From: Bacillota bacterium
Lineage (GTDB): Bacteria; Bacillota; UBA4882; UBA10575
DNA length: 42,201 nucleotides
NCBI GenBank assembly: GCA_012837715.1
Contig: DUQR01000017.1
Coordinates: forward strand, 1 to 42,201
Direction of reading: 5' to 3'
The position numbers and the translations under genes are program-made. Each line of letters starts with the position of its first letter. Positions within the stretch are counted from its first letter, which is position 1. Of this stretch, positions 17,758 to 42,172 are shown one piece after another. The notes beneath the pieces were generated by a model. That model saw only the letters and a list, made by a program, of their open reading frames with translations. It was not told where the DNA came from and did no database searches.

Positions 17758-17826
17758 TCCTAGTGGAATATTTTACCTATTAAATGTGAAGAATAACAGT
17801 GTCATTATTGTTTGAAGGTGTTGTCG

Positions 17827-19296
17827 ATGAAATTAAAAACAATCTTGGATGGGATCCCCATCCGTGAATTCCAAGGTGATCCAGAGCACGAAATCTCCGC
17901 GGTTTGGGCTAATTCCCAGGAAGTTACCGCCGGTTCCTTATTTATTGCGCTCAAAGGTTCGCTCCACGACGGCCATAACTTTATTCCCGAAGCTATAGCC
18001 AAAGGCGCCCGGGCTGTAATGGTGGAAACAAAAGTCCCGGTTCCGGCGGGGATCAGCCTGGTGCTGGTTGAGGATACCCAAGCTGCCCAGAGGCTGGTAG
18101 GTCAAAATTTCTACGGCGATCCGGCGTCGAAACTTAAACTGATCGGCATTACTGGAACCAAGGGTAAGACGACAACCGCTTTTCTGACTTATTCAATTTT
18201 GAAAGCCGCTGGTTTCAAAACCGGTCTCATTGGCACAATCTACAATTTAGTGAATGGACAAAAATTACCTACCAGAAACACCACTCCGGCTTCGCTTGAA
18301 TTGCAACGTCTTTTGGCGGAAATGGTCAAAGCAAAAAGCGAATATGTGGTGATGGAAGTCTCTTCCCATGCTATTGCTTTAGAACGGATAGCCGGTCTTA
18401 CTTTTTGCCGGGGAGTATTTACCAATCTCACCCGGGATCATCTTGATTTCCATTGTACTTTTGCCGACTATCTTGCCACTAAAACCAGGTTCTTTGCCGA
18501 CTTGCCTGCCACGGCCAAAGCCCTGATCAACCTGGATGATTCCCATGGCCCCCAGATTGCCGCGGCCACCAATGGAGAAGTAATTGGCTACGGTTTACGG
18601 GCCGACCTCCCGGTCCGGGCGGAAAGGGTTAGAACCACGATGAAAAAGACGGAATTCCAGTTCATGAGCGCAGAAGGTTCTTTACCGATCCACCTCAATT
18701 TAATCGGCCAATTTAATGTATATAATGCCCTAGCCGCCGGCGCGGTCGGTATTTCCTTAGGCTTCGATCTGGAAACGGTCAAACGGGGATTAGAGCAACT
18801 CCCGGGCGTGCCCGGCCGGTTCGAACTTGTCCCCACCCGAGGCGAGTACACGATCGTCATTGATTACGCACATACGCCGGATAGTTTAGAAAATCTACTT
18901 ACTACCGCTCGGGCTTTGACGCCCAAGCGGGTAATTACGGTTTTTGGGTGCGGGGGTAACCGGGATCAAGGTAAAAGAGGGTTGATGGGTGAGGTCGCGG
19001 CCAAAATAAGTGATTACACCATCATTACCAATGATAATCCACGGCGGGAAGACCCGGAAAGGATTGCCGCCCAGATCAAAAAGGGTTTTTTAGAAACTAA
19101 ACCCGATGGGGCCCTCGAAGTCCTCCTCGACCGGGAAGCGGCGATCAAAAAAGCCGTCCTTATGGCTGAGGCCGGTGATATGGTCGTGATTGCCGGAAAA
19201 GGCCATGAAACCTACCAGGACTTTGGAACGTATAAGATCCATTTTGACGATAAAGAAACTGCGCAAAGCGTAGTGAAGGAGAAAGAAGAGACTTAA
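17827..19296 (+). CDS. murE: UDP-MurNAc-L-Ala-D-Glu--meso-diaminopimelate ligase
   Basis: MurE adds the third residue of the peptidoglycan stem peptide in the cytoplasm. The product has 489 aa and three Mur-ligase domains. The ATP loop is GITGTKGKTTT. The specificity motif near the C-terminus is TNDNPRRED; DNPR is characteristic of enzymes that add meso-diaminopimelate rather than L-lysine. I start at ATG 17827, 6 nt behind GAAGGTG (17814-17820). murF follows with a 2-bp gap. Confidence 0.95.
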   Translation: MKLKTILDGIPIREFQGDPEHEISAVWANSQEVTAGSLFIALKGSLHDGHNFIPEAIAKGARAVMVETKVPVPAGISLVLVEDTQAAQRLVGQNFYGDPASKLKLIGITGTKGKTTTAFLTYSILKAAGFKTGLIGTIYNLVNGQKLPTRNTTPASLELQRLLAEMVKAKSEYVVMEVSSHAIALERIAGLTFCRGVFTNLTRDHLDFHCTFADYLATKTRFFADLPATAKALINLDDSHGPQIAAATNGEVIGYGLRADLPVRAERVRTTMKKTEFQFMSAEGSLPIHLNLIGQFNVYNALAAGAVGISLGFDLETVKRGLEQLPGVPGRFELVPTRGEYTIVIDYAHTPDSLENLLTTARALTPKRVITVFGCGGNRDQGKRGLMGEVAAKISDYTIITNDNPRREDPERIAAQIKKGFLETKPDGALEVLLDREAAIKKAVLMAEAGDMVVIAGKGHETYQDFGTYKIHFDDKETAQSVVKEKEET

Positions 19297-19298
19297 TC

Positions 19299-20708
19299 AT
19301 GCCGGTATTTACTTTAGATGAGCTAATCAAAGCCACCGCCGGGAAGCTAGTGCGAAGGGGTAATGATCAACAGATCAAGGGGGTCAGTATTGATAGCAGA
19401 ACCCTGGTGCCGGGGGAAGTTTTTATTGCGCTTAAGGGTCTCAACTTTGACGGCCATGATTATGTGCAAACCGCCATCGAGAAAGGGGCGGTCGCCGTGA
19501 TCACCGAAAGGGAACTGCCTTTACCCCCGGCTTGGCGGGGCACAGTAATTAACGTTCCCGACACCCGCGAAGCCTTCGGGCATTTAGCCCGCTTCCACCG
19601 ACTCCGTTTTGACGGACCGGTCATCGGCATCACCGGTAGTAACGGTAAGACCACCACCAAAGAATTGATCGCCTCCATTCTGGCCCAAACGGGAAAGGTG
19701 GTCAAAACCGAAAAAAATTTCAACAACGAAATCGGATTACCCCTTACTTTACTCAAGATCACCTCCGACACCAGCGCCGTCGTGGTCGAAATGGGCATGC
19801 GCGGAAAAGGACAGATTGCTTATTTAGCAAAGCTTGCCCAACCGACAATGGGGGTAATTACCAACATTGGCGTAACCCATTTGGAACTCTTAGGTAGTCA
19901 AGGGGCAATCGCCGAAGCGAAGGGGGAATTAATCCAAGCACTCCCTCCTTCCGGAGTTGCTGTTTTGAACGGCGATGATCCCTTCGTCACCCGGATGGGT
20001 ACGGGTTTTTCCGGAAAAACCCTATATTACCGACTACATTTCCGAAAGGATGAGTCGGGACCGGCGCCCGATCTTTTTACCGTCGCCATCACCACGAAGG
20101 GCGATCGGGAAGAGGTAACGGTTGACGGACGGTGGGGTCAATTTGATTTTAGCCTGCCGCTCCTCGGTCGCCATAATGTGGCTAATGCTTTAGCCGCCGC
20201 CCTCGTTGGCCTGAATTTGGGTCATAAACCCGAAGAGGTTGCTCTTGGCTTAGCCAATGTCCACAATCTGGAGAAACGCCTGCGGAGGTTAGAAATAGCC
20301 GGGATTACCGTTTTAGATGACACCTATAACGCCAGTCCGGCTTCGGTCCAGGCGGGCCTGGAGGTTTTACAGAAAATAGATCATCCCGGACGTAAAATTG
20401 CCGTTTTAGGAGATATGCTAGAACTGGGGCCGATCGGCAAAGCAGCCCATCGCCAAACCGGCGAAATGGTTGCTCGCTACGGCTGTGCCGCCCTCTTCAC
20501 CTACGGGCCGCTTTCCCTGGAAATGAAGAAAGGCGCGGCGAAAAAAGGGGTGTTGGCTTATCATTTTTCGACTAAGGAAGAACTGTGGCTGAAGTTGAAA
20601 GCCTATTTGGCTCCGGGTGATGCCATCCTGATCAAAGGATCCCGTGGTATGGAAATGGAAGGAATCGTGGAAAAGATCATTGCCCTAGAGAAGGGGGGAG
20701 AAAAATGA
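19299..20708 (+). CDS. murF: UDP-MurNAc-tripeptide--D-Ala-D-Ala ligase
   Basis: MurF adds D-Ala-D-Ala to complete the stem pentapeptide. The 469-aa protein shows the ATP-binding loop GITGSNGKTTTKE, the conserved EKNFNNEIGLPLTLL just behind it, and DDTYNASPASVQAGL in the C-terminal domain. It starts at ATG 19299. It overlaps mraY by 4 bp in an ATGA arrangement, which indicates translational coupling. Confidence 0.95.
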   Translation: MPVFTLDELIKATAGKLVRRGNDQQIKGVSIDSRTLVPGEVFIALKGLNFDGHDYVQTAIEKGAVAVITERELPLPPAWRGTVINVPDTREAFGHLARFHRLRFDGPVIGITGSNGKTTTKELIASILAQTGKVVKTEKNFNNEIGLPLTLLKITSDTSAVVVEMGMRGKGQIAYLAKLAQPTMGVITNIGVTHLELLGSQGAIAEAKGELIQALPPSGVAVLNGDDPFVTRMGTGFSGKTLYYRLHFRKDESGPAPDLFTVAITTKGDREEVTVDGRWGQFDFSLPLLGRHNVANALAAALVGLNLGHKPEEVALGLANVHNLEKRLRRLEIAGITVLDDTYNASPASVQAGLEVLQKIDHPGRKIAVLGDMLELGPIGKAAHRQTGEMVARYGCAALFTYGPLSLEMKKGAAKKGVLAYHFSTKEELWLKLKAYLAPGDAILIKGSRGMEMEGIVEKIIALEKGGEK

Positions 20709-24916: not shown

Positions 24917-24970
24917 ACGACAATTCTTGTTTAAAAGAAGGATTTAAAACAGAATTGTCGTATTTTTTTT
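24917..24970 (+). terminator. Intrinsic terminator after the SPOR gene
   Basis: ACGACAATTCT (24917-24927) pairs with AGAATTGTCGT (24951-24961), extended inside by GTTTAAA/TTTAAAAC, and is followed by eight or more T residues. Confidence 0.9.
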
Positions 24971-25024
24971 TAGGCTCTTTTTTTGCTAAAATAAAGCAAT
25001 CAATTTCCATAAGGAGATGGCCGG

Positions 25025-25396
25025 ATGAAATTACGTGAGGTGCAAAAACTGCTCAAAGCGAAAACCCTGACCGGAGAAGGACTATTAGACCAACTAGAGG
25101 TCAAAATGATCTGTGGTTCCGACTTGATCAGTGATGTTTTAACTTTTACCAAAGAAAAATCCCTACTCCTTACCGGTTTAACTAACCCCCAAATTATCCG
25201 GACCGCTGAAATGATCGATCTCTGTGGAATTGTCTTTGTGCGGGGGAAAACCCCCAGCGATGAGGTTGTTTCCATGGCGGCGGAACGGTCCCTGCCTTTA
25301 CTCGTCACCGACCTTCCGCTTTATGAGTCTTGTGGCCTTTTATATAATGCCGGTTTACAAGGGTGCAGCGGACTGCAGATCAACTGCCGGGGGTGA
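25025..25396 (+). CDS. DRTGG-domain protein (first copy)
   Basis: The 123-aa protein consists of a DRTGG-like domain: an opening MKLREVQKLLKAKTLTGEG, a middle SDLISDVLTF, and an alpha/beta pattern ending LPLLVTDLPLYESCGLLY. DRTGG domains occur in phosphotransacetylases and CBS proteins and are of unknown, probably regulatory, function. It starts at ATG 25025 behind AAGGAG. An ATPase gene follows 5 bp later, and a second DRTGG gene lies at 27240, flanking the HydS-like gene. Comparable stand-alone DRTGG genes occur in hydrogenase clusters of Clostridia and Thermotogae. Confidence 0.8.
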   Translation: MKLREVQKLLKAKTLTGEGLLDQLEVKMICGSDLISDVLTFTKEKSLLLTGLTNPQIIRTAEMIDLCGIVFVRGKTPSDEVVSMAAERSLPLLVTDLPLYESCGLLYNAGLQGCSGLQINCRG

Positions 25397-25401
25397 CAGA
25401 A

Positions 25402-25866
25402 TTGACGGAAACCCGGGTCCTTTTAGAGTTCCCGGTGGAAGGGGGCAATTTTCCGGCTGCCGGAGAAGCGGCCAGCAAAGTTAAGAAAACCCTCCAGAAA
25501 TTAGGAATTGATTCCAACTTGACCAGAAGGGTTTCCATTGCCACTTATGAAGCAGAAATGAATATCGTGATCCATGCCGATTACGGAAAGATTACCTTAC
25601 AGGTCGATCCCGACGGGATTTGGATCCGGGCGGAAGACCGTGGGAAAGGAATCCCCGACATCAGCCAAGCAATGATCGAAGGCTTCTCCACCGCGCCGGA
25701 AAGGGTCAGAGAAATGGGTTTTGGCGCCGGTATGGGTTTGCCCAACATCAAAAAATGCGCTGATCTCCTTGAGATCTCAAGTAAACTCAATATCGGTACT
25801 ACTGTTGCGATGGGCTTTTATTACCCAACCGCAAAGAGGGAAAGCGGACAATCTAAACCAAACTGA
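25402..25866 (+). CDS. RsbW-like GHKL ATPase (anti-sigma factor type)
   Basis: The 154-aa protein is a single HATPase_c domain of the RsbW/SpoIIAB kind. It has the N-box ATYEAEMNIVIHA, the G1 box AEDRGKGIPD and the G2 box GFGAGMGLPNIKKCADLLEI. Such proteins are serine kinases or switch ATPases that bind partner proteins. No sigma factor or anti-anti-sigma partner is adjacent, so its target may be the HydS-like protein or the DRTGG proteins. The start is TTG 25402 behind GGGGGTGAC; the upstream ATG 25363 lies inside the previous gene. Confidence 0.83.
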   Translation: MTETRVLLEFPVEGGNFPAAGEAASKVKKTLQKLGIDSNLTRRVSIATYEAEMNIVIHADYGKITLQVDPDGIWIRAEDRGKGIPDISQAMIEGFSTAPERVREMGFGAGMGLPNIKKCADLLEISSKLNIGTTVAMGFYYPTAKRESGQSKPN

Positions 25867-25888
25867 TCTTCCGTGAGGAGGTGGTTTG

Positions 25889-27271
25889 ATGGAACCCCGT
25901 GCCCATTCCGTCGTCATGGACGAGGAAAAATGTAAAGGATGCACCAATTGCATTAAAAGGTGTCCAACGGAAGCAATCCGCGTCCGCGGTGGGAAAGCTT
26001 TTATTCTTACGGAACGTTGTATCGATTGCGGGGAATGTATTCGCACCTGTGAAAACCATGCCAAAAAAGCAGTAGCCGATTCCTTAGATGCCCTTCAACA
26101 ATATCAGTACCGGGTAGCTTTACCGGCCCCCAGCTTATATGCGCAATTCAAATCGGAAAAACCGGAAAAAATTATCGCCGCCCTTTATCAACTAGGGTTT
26201 GACGAGGTATATGAAGTGGCTTATGCCGCCGAATTAACGACCTGTGCCATTCAACAATATATTCGGGACTACCAAAAAACCGACCGGACCGAGGTTTATC
26301 CCCTCATTTCTTCCTCCTGTCCGGTGGTTACCCGCTTGATTCAAATCCGCTTCCCAAGCCTCCTTCCAAATTTAATCCCAGTGGATCCACCGTATATTAC
26401 CGCCGCCAAATGTTTTCTCCAGCATAGACTGCCCGTGCTCAGCCTTTCCCGGGAAAAAGTGGGCGTCTTTTTTATTACACCATGTCCGGCCAAGATTACC
26501 GACCTCAACGTCTATGGCAAGCATTTGGTCGATGGCGCCATTCCCATCAGCCTGATTTTTGGCAAGCTAAATCAGATTTTGTACCAAAAAAAGCTTTCTC
26601 CCTCTTCCCCGCAAAGTTCCGGTGTGGGGATGGGCTGGGCGCGGGCTGGTGGGGAAAATTTCGCAGTCAAATTCGAGAACACCATGGCGGTTGATGGGAT
26701 CCAAAATATTGTCGCCTTGCTCGAAGAGATCGAAATGGGTAAACTCCATGATATTGAATTTATTGAGGCCATGGCGTGTCCCCAGGGGTGTGTCGGCGGC
26801 GCGTTAACCATTGAAAACCCCTTCGTCGCCCGGGTAATGATTCGAAAACTGGCCGAGCATTACGGAGATAAGGCTTTACCGACCAAGGTCGAAGCAATGT
26901 ACAAAGAGCTAACCCAAAAGGATTCACGCTTCTTTATCCATGACCAAGTTATCCCGGCAAAACCCATCCTCAAACTGGACGGTGATCTGACAAAAGCAAT
27001 TAAGAAATTAAACCAATTAGAAGAGATTGTCGCCAAACTTCCTGGGATTGATTGTGGCGCTTGCGGTTCACCAACCTGCCGCTCATTAGCGGAAGATATC
27101 GTTCAGAATAAGGCCCAACTGACCGATTGTATTATTATCCTACGGGAACAATTGGAAGAGTTAGCCCAGCGCTTATTGGTTTTAGCCCAGATCCGTCCGC
27201 CAGCGATGGGTTGGGAAACCGGAAGAAAGGGGGAGAAGAATGACTCTGAGGGAACTAGTTCAATTGATTGA
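25889..27271 (+). CDS. HydS-like [FeFe]-hydrogenase homologue with Fe-S domains (putative H2/redox sensor)
   Basis: The 460-aa protein opens with two [4Fe-4S] motifs (C15-C18-C21-C25 and C44-C47-C50-C54). A hydrogenase large-subunit domain follows. All four H-cluster cysteines appear to be kept: C144 in SSSCPVV, C199 in TPCPAK, C297 and C301 in EAMACPQGCVGGA. The proton-relay cysteine next to the first is Ser143, as in putative sensory hydrogenases. The C-terminus adds a further cluster motif (IDCGACGSPTCRSLAEDIV, C389/C392/C397/C414) and a helix. No PAS domain is visible, unlike Thermotoga HydS. I start at ATG 25889, 7 nt after GAGGAGG. It overlaps the next gene by 32 bp. Sensing is inferred. 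Confidence 0.85.
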   Translation: MEPRAHSVVMDEEKCKGCTNCIKRCPTEAIRVRGGKAFILTERCIDCGECIRTCENHAKKAVADSLDALQQYQYRVALPAPSLYAQFKSEKPEKIIAALYQLGFDEVYEVAYAAELTTCAIQQYIRDYQKTDRTEVYPLISSSCPVVTRLIQIRFPSLLPNLIPVDPPYITAAKCFLQHRLPVLSLSREKVGVFFITPCPAKITDLNVYGKHLVDGAIPISLIFGKLNQILYQKKLSPSSPQSSGVGMGWARAGGENFAVKFENTMAVDGIQNIVALLEEIEMGKLHDIEFIEAMACPQGCVGGALTIENPFVARVMIRKLAEHYGDKALPTKVEAMYKELTQKDSRFFIHDQVIPAKPILKLDGDLTKAIKKLNQLEEIVAKLPGIDCGACGSPTCRSLAEDIVQNKAQLTDCIIILREQLEELAQRLLVLAQIRPPAMGWETGRKGEKNDSEGTSSID

Positions 27272-27584
27272 AGCAGAGGTCGTGACCGGTGAAGGACGCT
27301 TAGACGAAAAGGTCACCGGAGTTTACGTTTCTGATCTCTTAAGTGATGTCATGGGGCACGCCCGGGAAGGGGAGGTGTGGCTGACCATCCAAACCCACAC
27401 CAATGTAGTGGCCGTGGCTTTATTACTGAATCTGGCCGCGGTTATTTTCACGGCCGACGCTAAACCCGACCCTTTAACCGTAGAAAAGGCACAAAACGAA
27501 GGCACGGTTCTCCTGACGACCAATTTAAGCACCTTTGAAACCGCCGGGCGCCTCTATTGTAAATTAAATGAAAACCCCGCTTAA
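27240..27584 (+). CDS. DRTGG-domain protein (second copy)
   Basis: The 114-aa protein has a DRTGG-type opening (MTLRELVQLIEAEVVTGEG) and VSDLLSDVMGHA, with the same layout as the first copy at 25025. The copies look paralogous but diverged. It starts at ATG 27240 behind AAGGGGGAG, inside the end of the HydS-like gene, and overlaps the PHP gene by 17 bp; such overlaps suggest translational coupling. Function unknown; regulatory binding of a nucleotide is possible. Confidence 0.8.
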   Translation: MTLRELVQLIEAEVVTGEGRLDEKVTGVYVSDLLSDVMGHAREGEVWLTIQTHTNVVAVALLLNLAAVIFTADAKPDPLTVEKAQNEGTVLLTTNLSTFETAGRLYCKLNENPA

Positions 27585-28308
27585 AACCTATGCCGCCGAT
27601 CTTCACCTCCACACCATCCTTTCGCCCTGTGGGGACGGGCAGATGGTACCGGAACTAGTTTTCGCGCAAGCGCTCAAAAAGGGGGTTCAGATTCTAGCGA
27701 TCACCGATCATAATTCCACCCGCAACCTTCCGGCCTTTCTTCGCCTCTGTCCACCGGAATTATGGGTGATCCCAGGAATGGAAGTCCAGACCAAAGAGGA
27801 GATACATCTAATCTGTTTATTTCCCCGGTTGGAACCGGCAATGGAGTGGGGGAAGACGGTCCGGGCTTTGTTACCGTCCATCAAGAATGAAAAGGGGTAT
27901 TTTGGTTCGCAAATAATCTTAAACGAAAACGGAGCAGCCGATGGGGAAGAGGAAGTTTTGCTCCTTAACTCCATTGATCTATCTCTGGAAGAAACCGTTG
28001 CCCAGGTGCGGCGGTTAGGCGGACTCATCTATCCGGCCCATATTAACCGGCCAGCCTTTAGCATCATTTCACAAATCGGGTTTATCCCGGAGGGTCTAGA
28101 GTTTAAAGTCTTAGAAATCTCACCCCGCGCCTGTGTGGAACAGCTTGGTCAACAATACCCCGACTACACTCTAGTCCGGGCTTCCGATGCCCATTATTTG
28201 GAGCAAATTGGTGTTCAGGCTTCCTCTTTAAAATTGGCCGGTTTGAATTGGGAGGAGCTAATTTTTGCCCTCACCCGGCAGGAAGGGAGGGATGTAATCC
28301 TTCATTAA
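27568..28308 (+). CDS. PHP-domain metal-dependent phosphoesterase
   Basis: The 246-aa protein has the PHP motifs: AADLHLHTILSPCGDG (motif I), ILAITDHNSTRN (motif II), IPGMEVQTKEEIHLIC (motif III) and RASDAHYLEQIG near the C-terminus. Family members hydrolyse phosphoesters such as nucleotides or 3',5'-bisphosphates using two or three metal ions. The substrate is not evident. It overlaps the second DRTGG gene and ends the first half of the cluster. In related clusters PHP genes sit beside hydrogenase genes, but the reason is not known. Confidence 0.85.
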   Translation: MKTPLKTYAADLHLHTILSPCGDGQMVPELVFAQALKKGVQILAITDHNSTRNLPAFLRLCPPELWVIPGMEVQTKEEIHLICLFPRLEPAMEWGKTVRALLPSIKNEKGYFGSQIILNENGAADGEEEVLLLNSIDLSLEETVAQVRRLGGLIYPAHINRPAFSIISQIGFIPEGLEFKVLEISPRACVEQLGQQYPDYTLVRASDAHYLEQIGVQASSLKLAGLNWEELIFALTRQEGRDVILH

Positions 28309-28410: not shown

Positions 28411-28902
28411 ATGACAGAAGCCTGTTGCCATGGTATTACAGATGAAAAATACCAGAAACTAGATGAGGTCATTAACCAGTACAAGGGAAAGCCGGGTGGA
28501 TTAATTCCGGTGCTCCACCAAGCCCAGTTAATCTTTGGTTATCTGCCGAAAGAAGTCCAGATCAAAGTCGCGGAAGGACTTGACATTCCTTTAAGTGAAG
28601 TATATGGTGTAGTTACTTTTTACACATTTTTCTCCCAAAAACCAAGAGGAAAACATACCATCGGGGTATGTTTGGGCACAGCTTGCTACGTGAAAGGGGC
28701 AGCTGAAATTGTGGAAGCCCTGGAGAATAGTCTAGGGATTAAAGTGGGGGACACTACCGACAATGGAGAGTTTTCGTTAATGGTCACCCGTTGTATTGGC
28801 GCCTGTGGACTAGCCCCGGTGTTAACGGTCGGCGAAGATGTATACGGACGTTTATCTCCTGACAAAATACCGGAGATTATCAAACACTACGAGAAGATGT
28901 AA
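28411..28902 (+). CDS. hydC: NuoE/HydC-like [2Fe-2S] subunit
   Basis: The 163-aa protein is a thioredoxin-fold [2Fe-2S] protein of the NuoE family. The first half includes IPVLHQAQLIFGYLPKEVQ and EVYGVVTFYTFF. The cluster cysteines are in CLGTACYVKG (C-x4-C) and TRCIGACGLAP (C-x3-C). It carries electrons from the flavin subunit (see 29795) in NADH-linked hydrogenase or bifurcating complexes. It starts at ATG 28411 behind GAGGAGG. The catalytic HydA gene is not in the window. Confidence 0.9.
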   Translation: MTEACCHGITDEKYQKLDEVINQYKGKPGGLIPVLHQAQLIFGYLPKEVQIKVAEGLDIPLSEVYGVVTFYTFFSQKPRGKHTIGVCLGTACYVKGAAEIVEALENSLGIKVGDTTDNGEFSLMVTRCIGACGLAPVLTVGEDVYGRLSPDKIPEIIKHYEKM

Positions 28903-28923
28903 AAGAGCTAAAAATTGCTGAGT

Positions 28924-28953
28924 AGGAGAAGAAACGTTTTTTTATTTTCTCCT
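28924..28953 (+). terminator. Weak hairpin after hydC
   Basis: AGGAGAA pairs with TTCTCCT around a loop rich in T; a clear T tract after the stem is lacking. It might attenuate rather than end transcription. Confidence 0.35.
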
Positions 28954-28982
28954 CCTTGTGATTTTTGGATCAAAGTCCGGTG

Positions 28983-29534
28983 ATGGTTTTGAAAGACTTT
29001 TCACTGCATCTATTAGATTTAGCGCAAAATTCGTTGCGGGCGGGCGCTACTTTAATCAGTTTCTTCCTTAACGAACAAGTTAGAGAGAATCTGTTGGTCA
29101 TTGAGATCAAAGATAACGGTAAAGGAATGACCCGTGATGAACTGAGAAAAGTAGTGGACCCCTTTTTCACGACCCGCACCACCCGTAAAGTAGGTTTAGG
29201 TGTCTCTCTTTTTGCTGCCGCCGCCCAGCGTTGTGGGGGAAAATTAACCATAAGCTCCACACCTGATCTAGGAACGCGGTTAACTGCCAGCTTCCAGCTG
29301 AACCACTGGGACAAACCTCCCCTGGGCGATATGGCTAGCACATTAATAACCTTAATCGCCGGAAATCCTGAGGTTGATTTGGTCTATCGGCACCAGAGGG
29401 GAACCGCCGAGTATCTTTTTGATACTAGAGGTATAAAAAAACAATTGAAGGATGTTCCGATTTGTAACCCTACGGTTTTGACTTTTCTAGAAGAAGAGAT
29501 TCGAACGGGTTTAGCTCAGATCGAGAACTTATAA
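28983..29534 (+). CDS. GHKL (histidine kinase-like) ATPase of hydrogenase clusters
   Basis: The 183-aa protein is a lone HATPase_c domain with an N-box (LHLLDLAQNSLRAGA), a G1 box (EIKDNGKGMTRDELRK) and a lid/G2 region (FFTTRTTRKVGLGVSLF). There is no phosphoacceptor helix. Lone ATPases of this kind lie between NuoE- and NuoF-like genes in hydrogenase operons of several anaerobes, so this arrangement is typical, though the role is unproven. The start is uncertain: ATG 28983, TTG 28989 or TTG 28965, none with a good Shine-Dalgarno. Confidence 0.78.
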   Translation: MVLKDFSLHLLDLAQNSLRAGATLISFFLNEQVRENLLVIEIKDNGKGMTRDELRKVVDPFFTTRTTRKVGLGVSLFAAAAQRCGGKLTISSTPDLGTRLTASFQLNHWDKPPLGDMASTLITLIAGNPEVDLVYRHQRGTAEYLFDTRGIKKQLKDVPICNPTVLTFLEEEIRTGLAQIENL

Positions 29535-29764
29535 ACTAATTGGGCTAATTGCGTTGTCCCCCTAGCAACCATCCCGTAACCAGAGCTTGATTGGCTTGAC
29601 CGGTCATCGGTAAGCATCACACTATCGATTGGGGCACGCCCCCGATGAGTAAACAACGCAATTGGCTTGAACAAAGCTTTTTCCGTTGTAACCAATAAAA
29701 AGGATTTCAATACCATATTTGTATTGGAATCGTTGAAGCCAAGGACAACGCAAAAAGCCCTAAC
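29535..29764. repeat. Palindromic intergenic element, full copy
   Basis: About 230 bp between the ATPase gene and hydB are built of nested inverted repeats. The outer arms are GGGCTAATTGCGTTGTCC (29542-29559) and GGACAACGCAAAAAGCCC (29743-29760). An inner arm ACAACGCAATTGGCTT (29654-29669) also pairs with the left end. A second hairpin joins GCTTTTTCCGTTGT (29676-29689) with ACAACGCAAAAAGC (29745-29758), enclosing GATTTCAATAC/GTATTGGAATC. A degenerate copy lies at 7914-8022. It could be a MITE-like mobile repeat or a structured RNA. Confidence 0.65.
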
Positions 29765-29794
29765 TAAGCTAGAAAGGAAGAAGGGAAGTAAATT

Positions 29795-31588
29795 ATGAAC
29801 CTGTATCGTGCTCATGTCTTAATTTGCGGTGGCGCTGGTTGTCTTTCGTCCGGATGCAAAGCAGTCTTAGACAAGTTTAATACCGAGCTCAAAGCACATA
29901 ATTTACAAGACGAAATTAATGTGGTTGAAACCGGGTGTATTGGTACCTGTGATCTAGGACCGGTCATGGTGGTCTATCCCGAGGGAATATTTTATCAGAA
30001 AGTCGCTCCGGAAGATGTCACGGAAATTATCGAAGAACATCTCATCAAAGGAAGGTACGTCACCCGTTTATTATATGAACGACCGGCTTCCGGTGAACAA
30101 ATACCTTTTTACAATGAGATTAATTTCTTCCGGAAACAGCAGCGGATTGCTTTACGGAACGTCGGACTAATCAATCCCGAAGTAATCGAGGAATATATCG
30201 CGCAAGACGGTTATCTCGCCCTTGGTAAAGTGCTTTCCACCTACACCCCGGAACAAGTAATCCAAGTGCTTAAAGATTCCGGGTTACGGGGAAGAGGAGG
30301 GGCTGGATTCCCCACCGGCTTGAAATGGGAGTTTACCAAAAATGCCCCCGGGGATCAGAAATACGTGATCTGTAACGCCGACGAGGGCGACCCTGGCGCC
30401 TTTATGGACCGCAGTGTTCTCGAAGGAGATCCCCATTCCGTAATTGAGGCGATGACGATTGCCGGTTATGCCGTTGGCGCCAATCAAGGTTATATCTATG
30501 TGCGGGCCGAATATCCTTTAGCTGTGCAAAGATTGGAAGACGCCATTAAAAAAGCCCATGAATTTGGGATGCTTGGTGAGAATATTTTCGGAACCGGTTT
30601 TTCCTTTGATCTGGAAATCCGCGTCGGAGCGGGCGCCTTTGTCTGTGGTGAAGAAACCGCCCTGCTCGCCTCGATCGAAGGGAAACGGGGAGAACCCCGT
30701 CCCAAACCGCCTTTCCCGGCTTCCCAAGGATTATGGGGTAAACCAACCTTAATCAATAACGTGGAGACTTTCGCTAATATTCCCGTCATCATTAATCGGG
30801 GCGCCGATTGGTTTAAACAGATCGGTACGGAAAAAAGCAAAGGCACGAAAGTTTTCGCCTTAGCCGGAAAAGTTAATAACACCGGTCTGGTGGAAGTGCC
30901 CATGGGCACCACTTTACGCGAAGTCATCTTTGAATTGGGCGGTGGCATTCCCAACCATAAGCGGTTTAAAGCAGCCCAAACCGGTGGTCCCTCCGGCGGT
31001 TGTCTTACCGAGAAAGATCTGGATCAGCCCATGGATTACGAGTCGTTAGTAGCAGCCGGTTCAATGATGGGGTCCGGTGGCTTGATCGTCATGGACGAGG
31101 ACAACTGTATGGTGGACGTAGCCCGCTTCTTCTTGGAATTTACCCAGGATGAATCGTGCGGTAAATGTACCCCGTGCCGGGTTGGAACCAAAAGAATGTT
31201 GGAGATCTTGACTAAAATTACCCAAGGTAAAGGCGAAGAAAAGGATCTGGAACTTCTGGAGGAATTAGCCACTTCCATTAAGGCCACCGCCTTGTGCGGA
31301 CTGGGTCAATCGGCTCCTAATCCGGTCTTGAGCACAATCCGGAATTTCCGCGATGAATATTTAGCCCACATTAGGGAGAAAAGATGCCCCGCCAAAGTAT
31401 GTCGGGCCTTATTACAATACTCCATCAGCAGCGAATTGTGTAAAGGGTGCGGGTTATGCGCACGTAATTGTCCGGAGAATGCAATCAGCGGCGAACCGAA
31501 GAAACCCTATACCATTGACCAAGAAAAATGTATCAAGTGCGGTAATTGTCTGGATAAATGTCCCTTTAACGCAATTACGCTTAAGTAA
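29795..31588 (+). CDS. hydB: NuoF/HydB-like NADH-oxidising flavoprotein
   Basis: The 597-aa protein has three parts. An N-terminal [2Fe-2S] thioredoxin-like domain (about 1-90) carries CGGAGCLSSGC and CIGTCDLGP. The NuoF core (about 120-540) carries the FMN/NADH loop LRGRGGAGFPTGLKWEF, VICNADEGDPGAFMDR and the [4Fe-4S] motif SCGKCTPCRVGTKRM. The C-terminus has two ferredoxin-type clusters (CKGCGLCARNCPENAI, CIKCGNCLDKCPFNAI). This layout matches HydB of bifurcating hydrogenases and related NADH:ferredoxin enzymes. The start is ATG 29795. HydA, normally the next gene, is missing; a LuxR-type gene follows. Confidence 0.92.
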   Translation: MNLYRAHVLICGGAGCLSSGCKAVLDKFNTELKAHNLQDEINVVETGCIGTCDLGPVMVVYPEGIFYQKVAPEDVTEIIEEHLIKGRYVTRLLYERPASGEQIPFYNEINFFRKQQRIALRNVGLINPEVIEEYIAQDGYLALGKVLSTYTPEQVIQVLKDSGLRGRGGAGFPTGLKWEFTKNAPGDQKYVICNADEGDPGAFMDRSVLEGDPHSVIEAMTIAGYAVGANQGYIYVRAEYPLAVQRLEDAIKKAHEFGMLGENIFGTGFSFDLEIRVGAGAFVCGEETALLASIEGKRGEPRPKPPFPASQGLWGKPTLINNVETFANIPVIINRGADWFKQIGTEKSKGTKVFALAGKVNNTGLVEVPMGTTLREVIFELGGGIPNHKRFKAAQTGGPSGGCLTEKDLDQPMDYESLVAAGSMMGSGGLIVMDEDNCMVDVARFFLEFTQDESCGKCTPCRVGTKRMLEILTKITQGKGEEKDLELLEELATSIKATALCGLGQSAPNPVLSTIRNFRDEYLAHIREKRCPAKVCRALLQYSISSELCKGCGLCARNCPENAISGEPKKPYTIDQEKCIKCGNCLDKCPFNAITLK

Positions 31589-31716: not shown

Positions 31717-31971
31717 ATGGCCCAATTACCGAGTACGCATCGACCCAATCTCCTTGAACAGTTGAGCCCCAGAGAGCGGGAGATCCTGCCTTTAGTGGCT
31801 CAAGGAAAGGATAATCGTGAGATTGGTAGGATCTTATTCATTAGTGAAAAAACAGCGAAAAACTACGTGACCAGTATTCGGAAGAAGTTAGGATTGAAAA
31901 ACCGAGCCCAAATTGCCCTCTTTGCGCTCAAAGAGGGGATCATTCAGCTTGATGAGACCTTAATTAATTAG
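31717..31971 (+). CDS. Small LuxR/GerE-type HTH regulator
   Basis: The 84-aa protein is a LuxR-type DNA-binding domain alone, similar in size to GerE. It shows LSPREREILPLVAQGKDNRE, the helix-turn-helix around IGRILFISEKTAKNYVTSI, and RKKLGLKNRAQIALFAL. It has no receiver or ligand domain, so activity is presumably set by its amount or by partners. It starts at ATG 31717 behind GAGGAGGAAGG and is followed by a terminator at 32008-32043. Its targets are not evident. Confidence 0.85.
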   Translation: MAQLPSTHRPNLLEQLSPREREILPLVAQGKDNREIGRILFISEKTAKNYVTSIRKKLGLKNRAQIALFALKEGIIQLDETLIN

Positions 31972-40411: not shown

Positions 40412-40591
40412 CTACATTACAAACATTAACCAAATAAGCGGATAGGCAATAAACAGATTCTTCCTGCAGAGCAGATAAATACAGCCGTACATCAATCCCC
40501 CAAGAAAACCGTAGAGCCCAACAGATACCCCTTTCAGATTATGCTTTTTAGCGAACTCCAGCATGCAAACGTCAACTAGAAATTGAGCCAC
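40412..40591 (-). pseudogene. C-terminal fragment of a membrane protein, cut by the IS
   Basis: Reading on the minus strand from the IS boundary, about 55 codons remain open, with two hydrophobic segments (GLYGFLGGLMYGCIYLLC, LFIAYPLIWLMFVM) and a stop at 40412. The frame runs into the IS end at 40592, so the upstream part was probably displaced by insertion. A short gene starting at the internal ATG (MLEFAKKHNLKG) cannot be excluded. I do not recognise the family. Confidence 0.35.
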
Positions 40592-40592
40592 T

Positions 40593-40620
40593 GGGGGTGC
40601 GGACAAAATCCTGGACTTGG
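40593..40620 (+). repeat. Left terminal inverted repeat of the IS
   Basis: It opens GGGGGTGCGGACA and ends GGACTTGG, pairing with 42174-42201. Confidence 0.88.
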
Positions 40621-40639
40621 AATAGTCAGGAGGATGTCC

Positions 40640-42172
40640 ATGTACTCATACGAAGATCGTATTAAAGCAGTGAAACTATATATTAAATATGACTTAAGTG
40701 TAGCAGACACAATCAGGGAACTTGGTTACCCAACACGTAACGCTCTTATTAAGTGGTATAAAGAGTATAAAGAAAAAGGTGACTTACATACTGATTATGA
40801 GAGAGAGCCCGAATTTTCAAGAGAACAGATGCAAAAGGCTGTTAATTACTATCTTGAGCATGGACGCTGTATCAGACGAACTGTAAGGATCTTGGGATAT
40901 CCCTCTACAACGACATTGATGCAGTGGATTGATAAATTAGCTCCGGGACAAAGAAAAGTTCGCATAACCCATGGCGATATGATACAATTTAGCGAAGAAA
41001 AGAAGAAGGATGCTGTTATTTCCCTGTGCACAAGAGATACATCTGCAGCCGTTGTTGCGGAAGAATACGGTGTCAGTAGAGCATGCTTGTACAACTGGAA
41101 AAAGCAGCTTCTCGATAAAAAGGATGAGAACAGCATGGTTCATTCAAAAAAGCCAAACCTTCCAGATGATAAGGATGAACTTCAAGCAGAATTAGAGTCA
41201 TTAAGGAAACAGGTACATAAACTACAGTTAGAGATAGATATTCTGACCAAAGCGGCAGAGATAATAAAAAAAGACCTGGGCATCGATCGCCAAAACCTGA
41301 CGAATAAAGAGAAAACCATGGTGATCGATGCCCTTAGGACAAGATACCAGCTTGATGAATTGCTAGAAGCAACAGGTATGGCAAAAAGTAGCTATTTCTA
41401 TCAAAGAAAGGTACAAACTCAACCCGATAAATATTTTACGTTGCGGTCAAAGGTAAGAGACATTTTTAACGAAAATAGGTGTTGCTACGGATATAGGCGT
41501 GTCCATGCAGTACTCAAGAATGAAGGTATTACGTGTTCAGAAAAGGTTATTCGGATGATAATGAGCACAGAACAGCTTATCATTCACGGGAAGAAAAAGC
41601 GTAGGTATAACTCCTATTTTGGAGAGATAAGCCCTGCTGTGCCGAATCTTCTAGCCCGTGACTTTCATGCTGATAAACCTAATGAGAAATGGGTAACTGA
41701 TCTTACGGAGTTTCTAATACCAGCAGGGAAAGTCTATCTTTCGCCAATCCTTGATTGCTTTGATGGTCTGGTCGTAAGTTGGTCAATAGGAACAAGCCCG
41801 GATGCAGAACTTGTTAACAGTATGCTGGATGAGGGAGTCGCTTGTCTGTCCGATGATGAACACCCGATTTTACATAGCGATCGAGGTGGTCACTATCGCT
41901 GGCCTGGTTGGATCTTACGTATGGATACTTATGGCTTGATTCGCTCTATGTCCAAAAAAGGATGTACACCCGATAATGCTGCATGTGAAGGTTTCTTTGG
42001 CACGCTTAAGACGGAAATGTTCTACGGTAGATCTTGGGAAGGAGTCTCTTTAGAACAGTTTATCAAAGAACTTGATTGTTATATACGATGGTACAATGAG
42101 AAACGAATTAAGATGCGTCTGGGGGGTATGAGCCCCTTGGTTTATAGACGAAGTCTTGGTCTAGTAGCATAA
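40640..42172 (+). CDS. IS3-family transposase, single fused OrfAB frame
   Basis: The 510-aa transposase has two N-terminal helix-turn-helix regions (about 1-50 and 115-160, the second GVSRACLYNWKKQLLD) and a leucine-rich coiled coil (about 175-215). An HTH_21-like segment and an integrase core with the DDE triad follow: Asp in WVTDLTEF, Asp in HSDRGGHYR and Glu in ACEGFFGTLKTEMFY. Most IS3 elements use two overlapping genes and a -1 frameshift; here one open frame spans both. An A7G run remains at the usual slip position (41266-41273). The start is ATG 40640, 6 nt behind CAGGAGG; the frame open from 40583 includes the inverted repeat. Confidence 0.93.
   Translation: MYSYEDRIKAVKLYIKYDLSVADTIRELGYPTRNALIKWYKEYKEKGDLHTDYEREPEFSREQMQKAVNYYLEHGRCIRRTVRILGYPSTTTLMQWIDKLAPGQRKVRITHGDMIQFSEEKKKDAVISLCTRDTSAAVVAEEYGVSRACLYNWKKQLLDKKDENSMVHSKKPNLPDDKDELQAELESLRKQVHKLQLEIDILTKAAEIIKKDLGIDRQNLTNKEKTMVIDALRTRYQLDELLEATGMAKSSYFYQRKVQTQPDKYFTLRSKVRDIFNENRCCYGYRRVHAVLKNEGITCSEKVIRMIMSTEQLIIHGKKKRRYNSYFGEISPAVPNLLARDFHADKPNEKWVTDLTEFLIPAGKVYLSPILDCFDGLVVSWSIGTSPDAELVNSMLDEGVACLSDDEHPILHSDRGGHYRWPGWILRMDTYGLIRSMSKKGCTPDNAACEGFFGTLKTEMFYGRSWEGVSLEQFIKELDCYIRWYNEKRIKMRLGGMSPLVYRRSLGLVA

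Follow-up and report, generated by a model that had tools for sequence, protein, structure and literature searches.

Only one hydrogenase of group D (M2e) has been characterised, namely TamHydS of Thermoanaerobacter mathranii, which carries Ala at the proton-relay site, shows a slow, reversible turnover of H2, and for which an H2-induced change of secondary structure was reported (PMC8163306, PMC10407848, PMC13104023). It is encoded upstream of a bifurcating hydrogenase, and its partners were described only as an HK-like ATPase, noted in the flanks in the TamHydS paper of 2020, and an AraC-type gene; finding the interaction partners was considered critical for the signalling mechanism in 2026 (PMC13104023). 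The survey of 2012 (PMC3561251) classed M2e as sensory from nearby kinases and bifurcating hydrogenases, the genes concerned being Athe_1292, Csac_1857, TTE0887, Cphy_3798, Cthe_0335 and Teth39_1463. [FeFe]-hydrogenases of group C (M2f/C3), such as TmHydS, R. albus HydS and T. saccharolyticum HfsB, are putatively sensory as well, with a fused PAS domain, a C-terminal FeS cluster and a position upstream of HydCBA. Here we analysed contig DUQR01000017.1 of the Bacillota bacterium assembly GCA_012837715.1 (the window, 42,201 bases, which is the entire contig C52), where a homologue of TamHydS, hereafter HydS, is encoded within a block of five genes at positions 25025-28308 of the forward strand. 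The draft genome comprises 2.43 Mb and is 98.7% complete; its closest named relatives are Bacillota metagenome-assembled genomes, one of them labelled Hydrogenispora.

The five open reading frames (ORFs) overlap or nearly touch, as seen in the ORF list, and encode, in this order, a DRTGG protein (d1), a SpoIIAB/RsbW-type ATPase, HydS, a second DRTGG protein (d2) and a PHP phosphoesterase. All of them exceed the Pfam gathering cut-offs for their domains, and this confirms the set of neighbours proposed in a previous reading made from the letters of the window alone (the sequence-only reading). The M2e genes of the survey of 2012 lie near protein kinases and about five genes before a bifurcating hydrogenase, and their products have no PAS domain; the gene of HydS likewise lies close to ATPase genes of kinase type and encodes a protein without PAS, and it is followed at a similar distance by hydC and hydB, with no hydA after them. 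The accessible part of that survey makes no mention of DRTGG and PHP genes, of fusions or of a module lacking hydrogenase genes. The sensor reading of group D is already known, and the hydrogenase of the window is, judged by its residues, a new member of this known group; what the literature searched does not describe is the partner set with its natural fusions. We consider it rather probable that HydS and the ATPase, together with the DRTGG domains, form one H2- or redox-responsive switch, because the neighbours are conserved, three kinds of fusion join them, and the ATP site, the H-cluster ligands and the group D proton path are intact.

In a survey of the phylum, HydS was found in 162 of 398 genomes and 101 of 271 genera. 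Of the 496 loci that were confirmed, neighbourhoods were counted in the best 80 that have a name, taking as denominators the loci with enough room. The gene immediately before HydS was that of the ATPase in 77 of 78 loci; d1 was present in 68 of 78, d2 in 67 of 70 and PHP in 58 of 70. All five genes were together in 52 of 69 loci, over a wide range of genera, and 8 further loci lacked PHP only; the commonest non-block family upstream was encountered in merely 11 of 80. The genes are tightly packed, with median gaps of 15 bases between ATPase and HydS and -4 bases for the remaining pairs of the block. Conservation of the five-gene block, a check that the sequence-only reading had proposed, is far beyond chance. 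The PHP gene is missing in Desulfotomaculia-type loci and dispensable in several lineages.

Fusion of neighbouring genes is standard evidence for direct functional coupling, and each neighbouring pair of the core exists somewhere as one protein. Fusions of d1 with the ATPase (about 269 amino acids) were present in Thermosediminibacterales. HydS carries d2 at its C-terminus in L189 and L200 (563 and 570 amino acids), which represent two genera of a single family, and the ATPase is joined to HydS in L206 and L207 (601 and 626 amino acids), again two genera, from a different family. Fusions from three separate lineages thereby chain HydS, the ATPase and both DRTGG proteins. In the HydS-d2 proteins, d2 occupies the place of the PAS domain of group C HydS. 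The structure of the ATPase-HydS fusion was predicted with confidence: it had a predicted local distance difference test (pLDDT) score of 89.1 and a predicted template modelling (pTM) score of 0.78, and its hydrogenase part matched CpI (4xdc) with Z of 33.3 and a root mean square deviation of 2.9 over 345 residues. Earlier, HydS had been read as having neither PAS nor kinase fusions. Pfam indeed detected no PAS, kinase or MCP domain in the window protein, and group D proteins are known to lack PAS (PMC8163306, PMC3561251), but for the family as a whole the ATPase-HydS proteins contradict the second half of the statement.

Furthermore, a pair of CBS domains is fused to the HydS-linked ATPase in two loci (L036:634-1521 and L193:585-1469), with a DRTGG gene adjoining, and a Rex-type repressor gene is situated directly upstream in 11 loci; these include L033, L037, L038 and further Thermosediminibacterales loci, and most of the 11 have DRTGG and ATPase fused. 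Both the CBS-ATPase fusions and the upstream Rex genes fit redox or energy control. It should be added that CBS and DRTGG are also combined in nucleotide-regulated pyrophosphatases. A search for the Rex operator in the window gave 11 matches with up to three mismatches versus 8.25 expected by chance, none of them at the start of the block.

The HydS gene (25886-27271, forward strand) encodes a protein of the size of TamHydS with Pfam domains Fe_hyd_lg_C (111 bits), FeS (50 bits) and Fer4. Its residues were compared with those of 86 HydS relatives and 26 group A hydrogenases, and 79 ATPases and 63 PHP proteins were taken for the other block members. The H-cluster cysteines C145, C200, C298 and C302 are kept, in agreement with the sequence-only reading, and were invariant in 86 of 86 relatives. 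The proton-relay site (C299 of CpI) is S144, again as had been read, which fits the alignment data for TamHydS, where the cysteine is lost in favour of Ala; the relatives had A (58), S (27) or T (1), and all 26 group A proteins had C. M353 is replaced by a hydroxyl residue, T198, in keeping with the Ser/Thr reported for TamHydS; 85 of 86 relatives have T or S there, and 26 of 26 group A proteins have M. The proton path E252/D265/E289 of TamHydS corresponds to E257/D270/E294 in the window protein with the TamHydS spacing kept; at the E252 position, group A has V and group C mostly has L. Moreover, D378-C379 and D403 of TamHydS have counterparts in D389-C390 and D414, and the C-terminal cluster motif Cx2Cx4Cx16C, common to both proteins, is made up of C390, C393, C398 and C415. 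The moderately conserved S249 of TamHydS is Ala in the window HydS, likewise in 35 of 86 relatives. Altogether, the signature sites of group D were almost invariant in the 86 relatives, and group C mostly has other residues there.

In a tree of 92 rows, the window HydS was placed within a clade of 33 at 100/100, with group A separate (100/100) and PAS- or MCP-bearing proteins also apart. It is thus not among the catalytic hydrogenases, the position on which the sequence-only reading depended. TamHydS was outside the tree and the rows called D were chosen by similarity to the window protein, so the assignment to group D (M2e) is signature-based. A catalytic group A enzyme was ruled out by S144, T198 and the tree position; a group C (M2f) sensory hydrogenase does not fit a protein with no PAS or fused signalling domain. 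Loss of the relay cysteine had been taken as pointing to sensing rather than turnover. The loss itself stands, but the absence of turnover does not follow, since TamHydS with Ala at this site turns H2 over slowly; Ser therefore does not exclude turnover, and the alternative proton path is kept.

The ATPase (25363-25866, forward strand; the start is uncertain, with the GTG at 25363 overlapping the d1 gene) was recognised by Pfam as HATPase_c (36.4 bits) and by profile comparison as a relative of SpoIIAB, 1til being its best solved relative (E 5e-13). The N, G1 and G2 boxes of the GHKL family (E63, N67 and H71; D92xGxG; G119xGxGxGL) are intact and invariant or nearly so in the 79 relatives. It resembles the anti-sigma kinases SpoIIAB and RsbW in fold and ATP boxes, and differs from them in the fusions to DRTGG, CBS and HydS seen in relatives and in a score of 48 bits with the curated SpoIIAB family model, where the cut-off is 135. 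The DRTGG proteins d1 (25025-25396, forward strand; PF07085, 32 bits, cut-off 25.2) and d2 (27240-27584, forward strand; PF07085, 36.4 bits) are products of the sole DRTGG genes detected in the genome, and a comparison of d2 with solved structures brought up no more than weak matches (HPr kinase, AF_1212). The PHP-type metal-dependent phosphoesterase (27568-28308, forward strand; Pfam PHP, 32.4 bits) has kept the metal ligands D11, H13, H15, D47, H48, E72, H80, H158 and H209, each retained in 60-63 of 63 relatives; by profile, the solved proteins nearest to it were Endonuclease Q and a 5'-3' exoribonuclease, and it also resembles further PHP enzymes.

The sequence-only reading had presented the five genes as a signalling block. 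They do not make up a stand-alone locus, however, but open a cluster of hyd genes. Immediately after them, at 28411-31588, and not mentioned in that reading, follow hydC, a gene for a second HATPase (HATP2) and hydB, and hydA is absent there, a difference from the TamHydS locus. Among 60 loci with room downstream, hydC was present in 52, the second HATPase in 53, hydB in 53 and hydA in 47. The sensor core occurred without hydC and hydB in seven loci. In four of these (L073, L085, L096 and L097) the block is retained with no hydC, hydB or hydA nearby, and in the other three (L050, L052 and L062) the ATPase-HydS pair stays, most other block genes being replaced by flanks with CheW and a carbon-nitrogen hydrolase; L062 retains the first DRTGG gene.

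Under the preferred reading of the block as one switch, HydS would bind H2 or equilibrate with electron carriers of the cell and then change its shape. This change might be handed by direct contact to the docked ATPase, with the DRTGG domains as adaptors, and the ATPase would then phosphorylate or release a target, most likely one tied to the adjacent bifurcating hydrogenase as the usual beneficiary. In lineages having PHP, this enzyme might provide the reset step, taking off a phosphate or a nucleotide. Tentatively, and with clearly less confidence than in the switch as such, we propose a wider mode of hydrogen signalling independent of PAS domains, in which an H-cluster protein gates a docked GHKL ATPase through DRTGG adaptors, without two-component or STAS/sigma partner switching, in a large share of anaerobic Bacillota; its target would be a metabolic enzyme, namely the bifurcating hydrogenase, or else a phospho-metabolite that PHP clears away.

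Several points weigh against a switch of this kind. The block contains no conserved DNA-binding or STAS target, and every type of fusion was seen in a single lineage. The model of the DRTGG-ATPase fusion, built from an alignment of 8 rows, reached pLDDT of 52 and was not used. A minor catalytic role of HydS is possible, given that TamHydS still turns over H2. Moreover, the maturases HydE, HydF and HydG, needed for the H-cluster, were not found in the 98.7%-complete assembly. Within the family, HydG was above the cut-off in 10 of 15 members, and genus g4 (G012, G013) was also without it; since HydG and HydF adjoin each other in relatives, one assembly gap could explain the absence. The three maturases went undetected despite two complete HydCBA sets encoded in the genome.

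Of the alternatives, an accessory function survives best, albeit as an unlikely one: the block would assemble, protect or electronically prime HydABC; the ATPases would then be chaperones, and HydS would serve as a slow partner in electron transfer. The linkage of most loci to hydC-HATP2-hydB(-hydA), the presence of two GHKL ATPases in one cluster and the reversible H2 turnover of TamHydS are all compatible with such a function. Nevertheless, the seven loci in which the block or its core stands without adjoining hydC, hydB or hydA speak against it, as do the lack of the N-terminal [2Fe-2S] part of HydA in HydS and the group-wide divergence of relay and active-site residues.

Classical partner switching, in which the ATPase, gated by HydS, would act as an anti-sigma kinase, binding a sigma factor and phosphorylating an antagonist of STAS type, appears improbable. 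Apart from the kinship with SpoIIAB and the retention of all ATP boxes, it could draw on the same genome, where a group C PAS-HydS is paired with a SpoIIE-type phosphatase. However, STAS and sigma genes are absent from the block according to Pfam, and the only stand-alone STAS gene of the genome is on contig C18 directly before a sigma-F-like gene, the two being probably spoIIA; the score under the SpoIIAB cut-off points the same way. The earlier designation of the ATPase as an RsbW-like switch protein is sound as regards the GHKL boxes and finds no support as regards a partner switch of RsbW type.

We give a similarly low probability to an energy-charge sensor in the first place, where DRTGG (and CBS in some loci) would bind adenine nucleotides, for example AMP or diadenosine tetraphosphate (Ap4A), PHP would hydrolyse the nucleotide and HydS would add a redox check. 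The CBS-ATPase fusion and the intact metal site of PHP agree with it, and DRTGG was reported to be important for binding of diadenosine polyphosphates (ApnA) in CBS-pyrophosphatases (PMC7226116). CBS was however observed in no more than two loci, Desulfotomaculia-type loci have no PHP, and the DRTGG domains of the block are divergent, with nucleotide binding putative. Finally, replacement of a lost HydA by HydS as the catalytic H2 subunit of HydBC in Hydrogenispora relatives, suggested by the fact that no Hydrogenispora-type locus with room has hydA behind hydB, is barely credible, as HydS has the same features in species retaining hydA and lacks the N-terminal clusters of HydA, and as the two complete HydCBA sets lie elsewhere in the genome.

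Searches of the literature, with subscription papers mostly outside their scope, brought up no account of this exact module, of how widely it is spread, of its occurrence apart from hyd genes or, above all, of its fusions; no DRTGG gene was reported in a hydrogenase cluster, and the one paper with both words concerned a lactate-linked DRTGG protein. The conserved neighbours and the three fusions name candidates for the partners of group D sensors, the ATPase in the first place and the DRTGG proteins next. The ATPase-HydS fusion suggests a route from hydrogen level to signal, the link that the field calls missing. If the switch is real, it would explain PAS-free H2 sensing in fermenting and syntrophic bacteria, with bearing on the control of H2, ethanol and acetate.

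As to transcription, a stem-loop with a T run (24917-24972, forward strand) is situated between a SPOR gene and d1, within 148 bases before d1. With a predicted fold of -17.2 kcal/mol and z of -3.26 (1 of 200 shuffles was equally good), it is a probable terminator marking the upstream edge of the block. A scan of the forward strand gave no terminator-like site between the start of the block and hydB, and together with the upstream stem-loop this suggests that a single transcription unit probably begins with the block and runs on through hydC, the second HATPase and hydB. The unit would comprise the HydC/NuoE-like 2Fe-2S subunit (28411-28902; Pfam 2Fe-2S_thioredx, 177 bits), the second HATPase, conserved between hydC and hydB in relatives (28965-29534; HATPase_c, 53.9 bits), and the HydB/NuoF-like flavoprotein (29795-31588; Pfam Complex1_51K, 165 bits), all on the forward strand. 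Perhaps it also extends to the next gene on this strand (31717-31971; Pfam GerE, 73 bits), encoding an 84-amino-acid stand-alone helix-turn-helix protein of GerE/LuxR type. In every Hydrogenispora-type locus with room (L020, L022, L023, L026-L029) hydA is missing after hydB, and a gene of this type stands in its place in the same orientation; its product is a candidate output regulator of the block.

Besides the block HydS, contig C10 (L100) harbours two Rex-like genes, a 2Fe-2S protein, the group C PAS-HydS with its neighbouring SpoIIE-type phosphatase (in place of the DRTGG proteins and ATPase of the window) and a complete hydC-hydB-hydA, and contig C20 (L102) encodes a HydS that bears an MCP signalling domain as a fusion. 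With the block HydS, the PAS-HydS on C10 and the MCP-HydS on C20, the genome has putative hydrogen sensors of three different styles. Another complete hydCBA is located on C18. The catalytic HydA on C18 (L101:7152-8897) has the motif TSCSPGW, and that on C10 has TSCCPAW.

Upstream of the block, the window contains MurE and MurF genes (17812-20708). The N-terminal domains of MurE and MurF are counted as relatives of the DRTGG and HPr-kinase N domains; their proximity to the DRTGG genes is probably a coincidence, because the block has different neighbours elsewhere. At the end of the contig, an ORF at 40583-42172 encodes, by its sequence, a putative IS3-like transposase.

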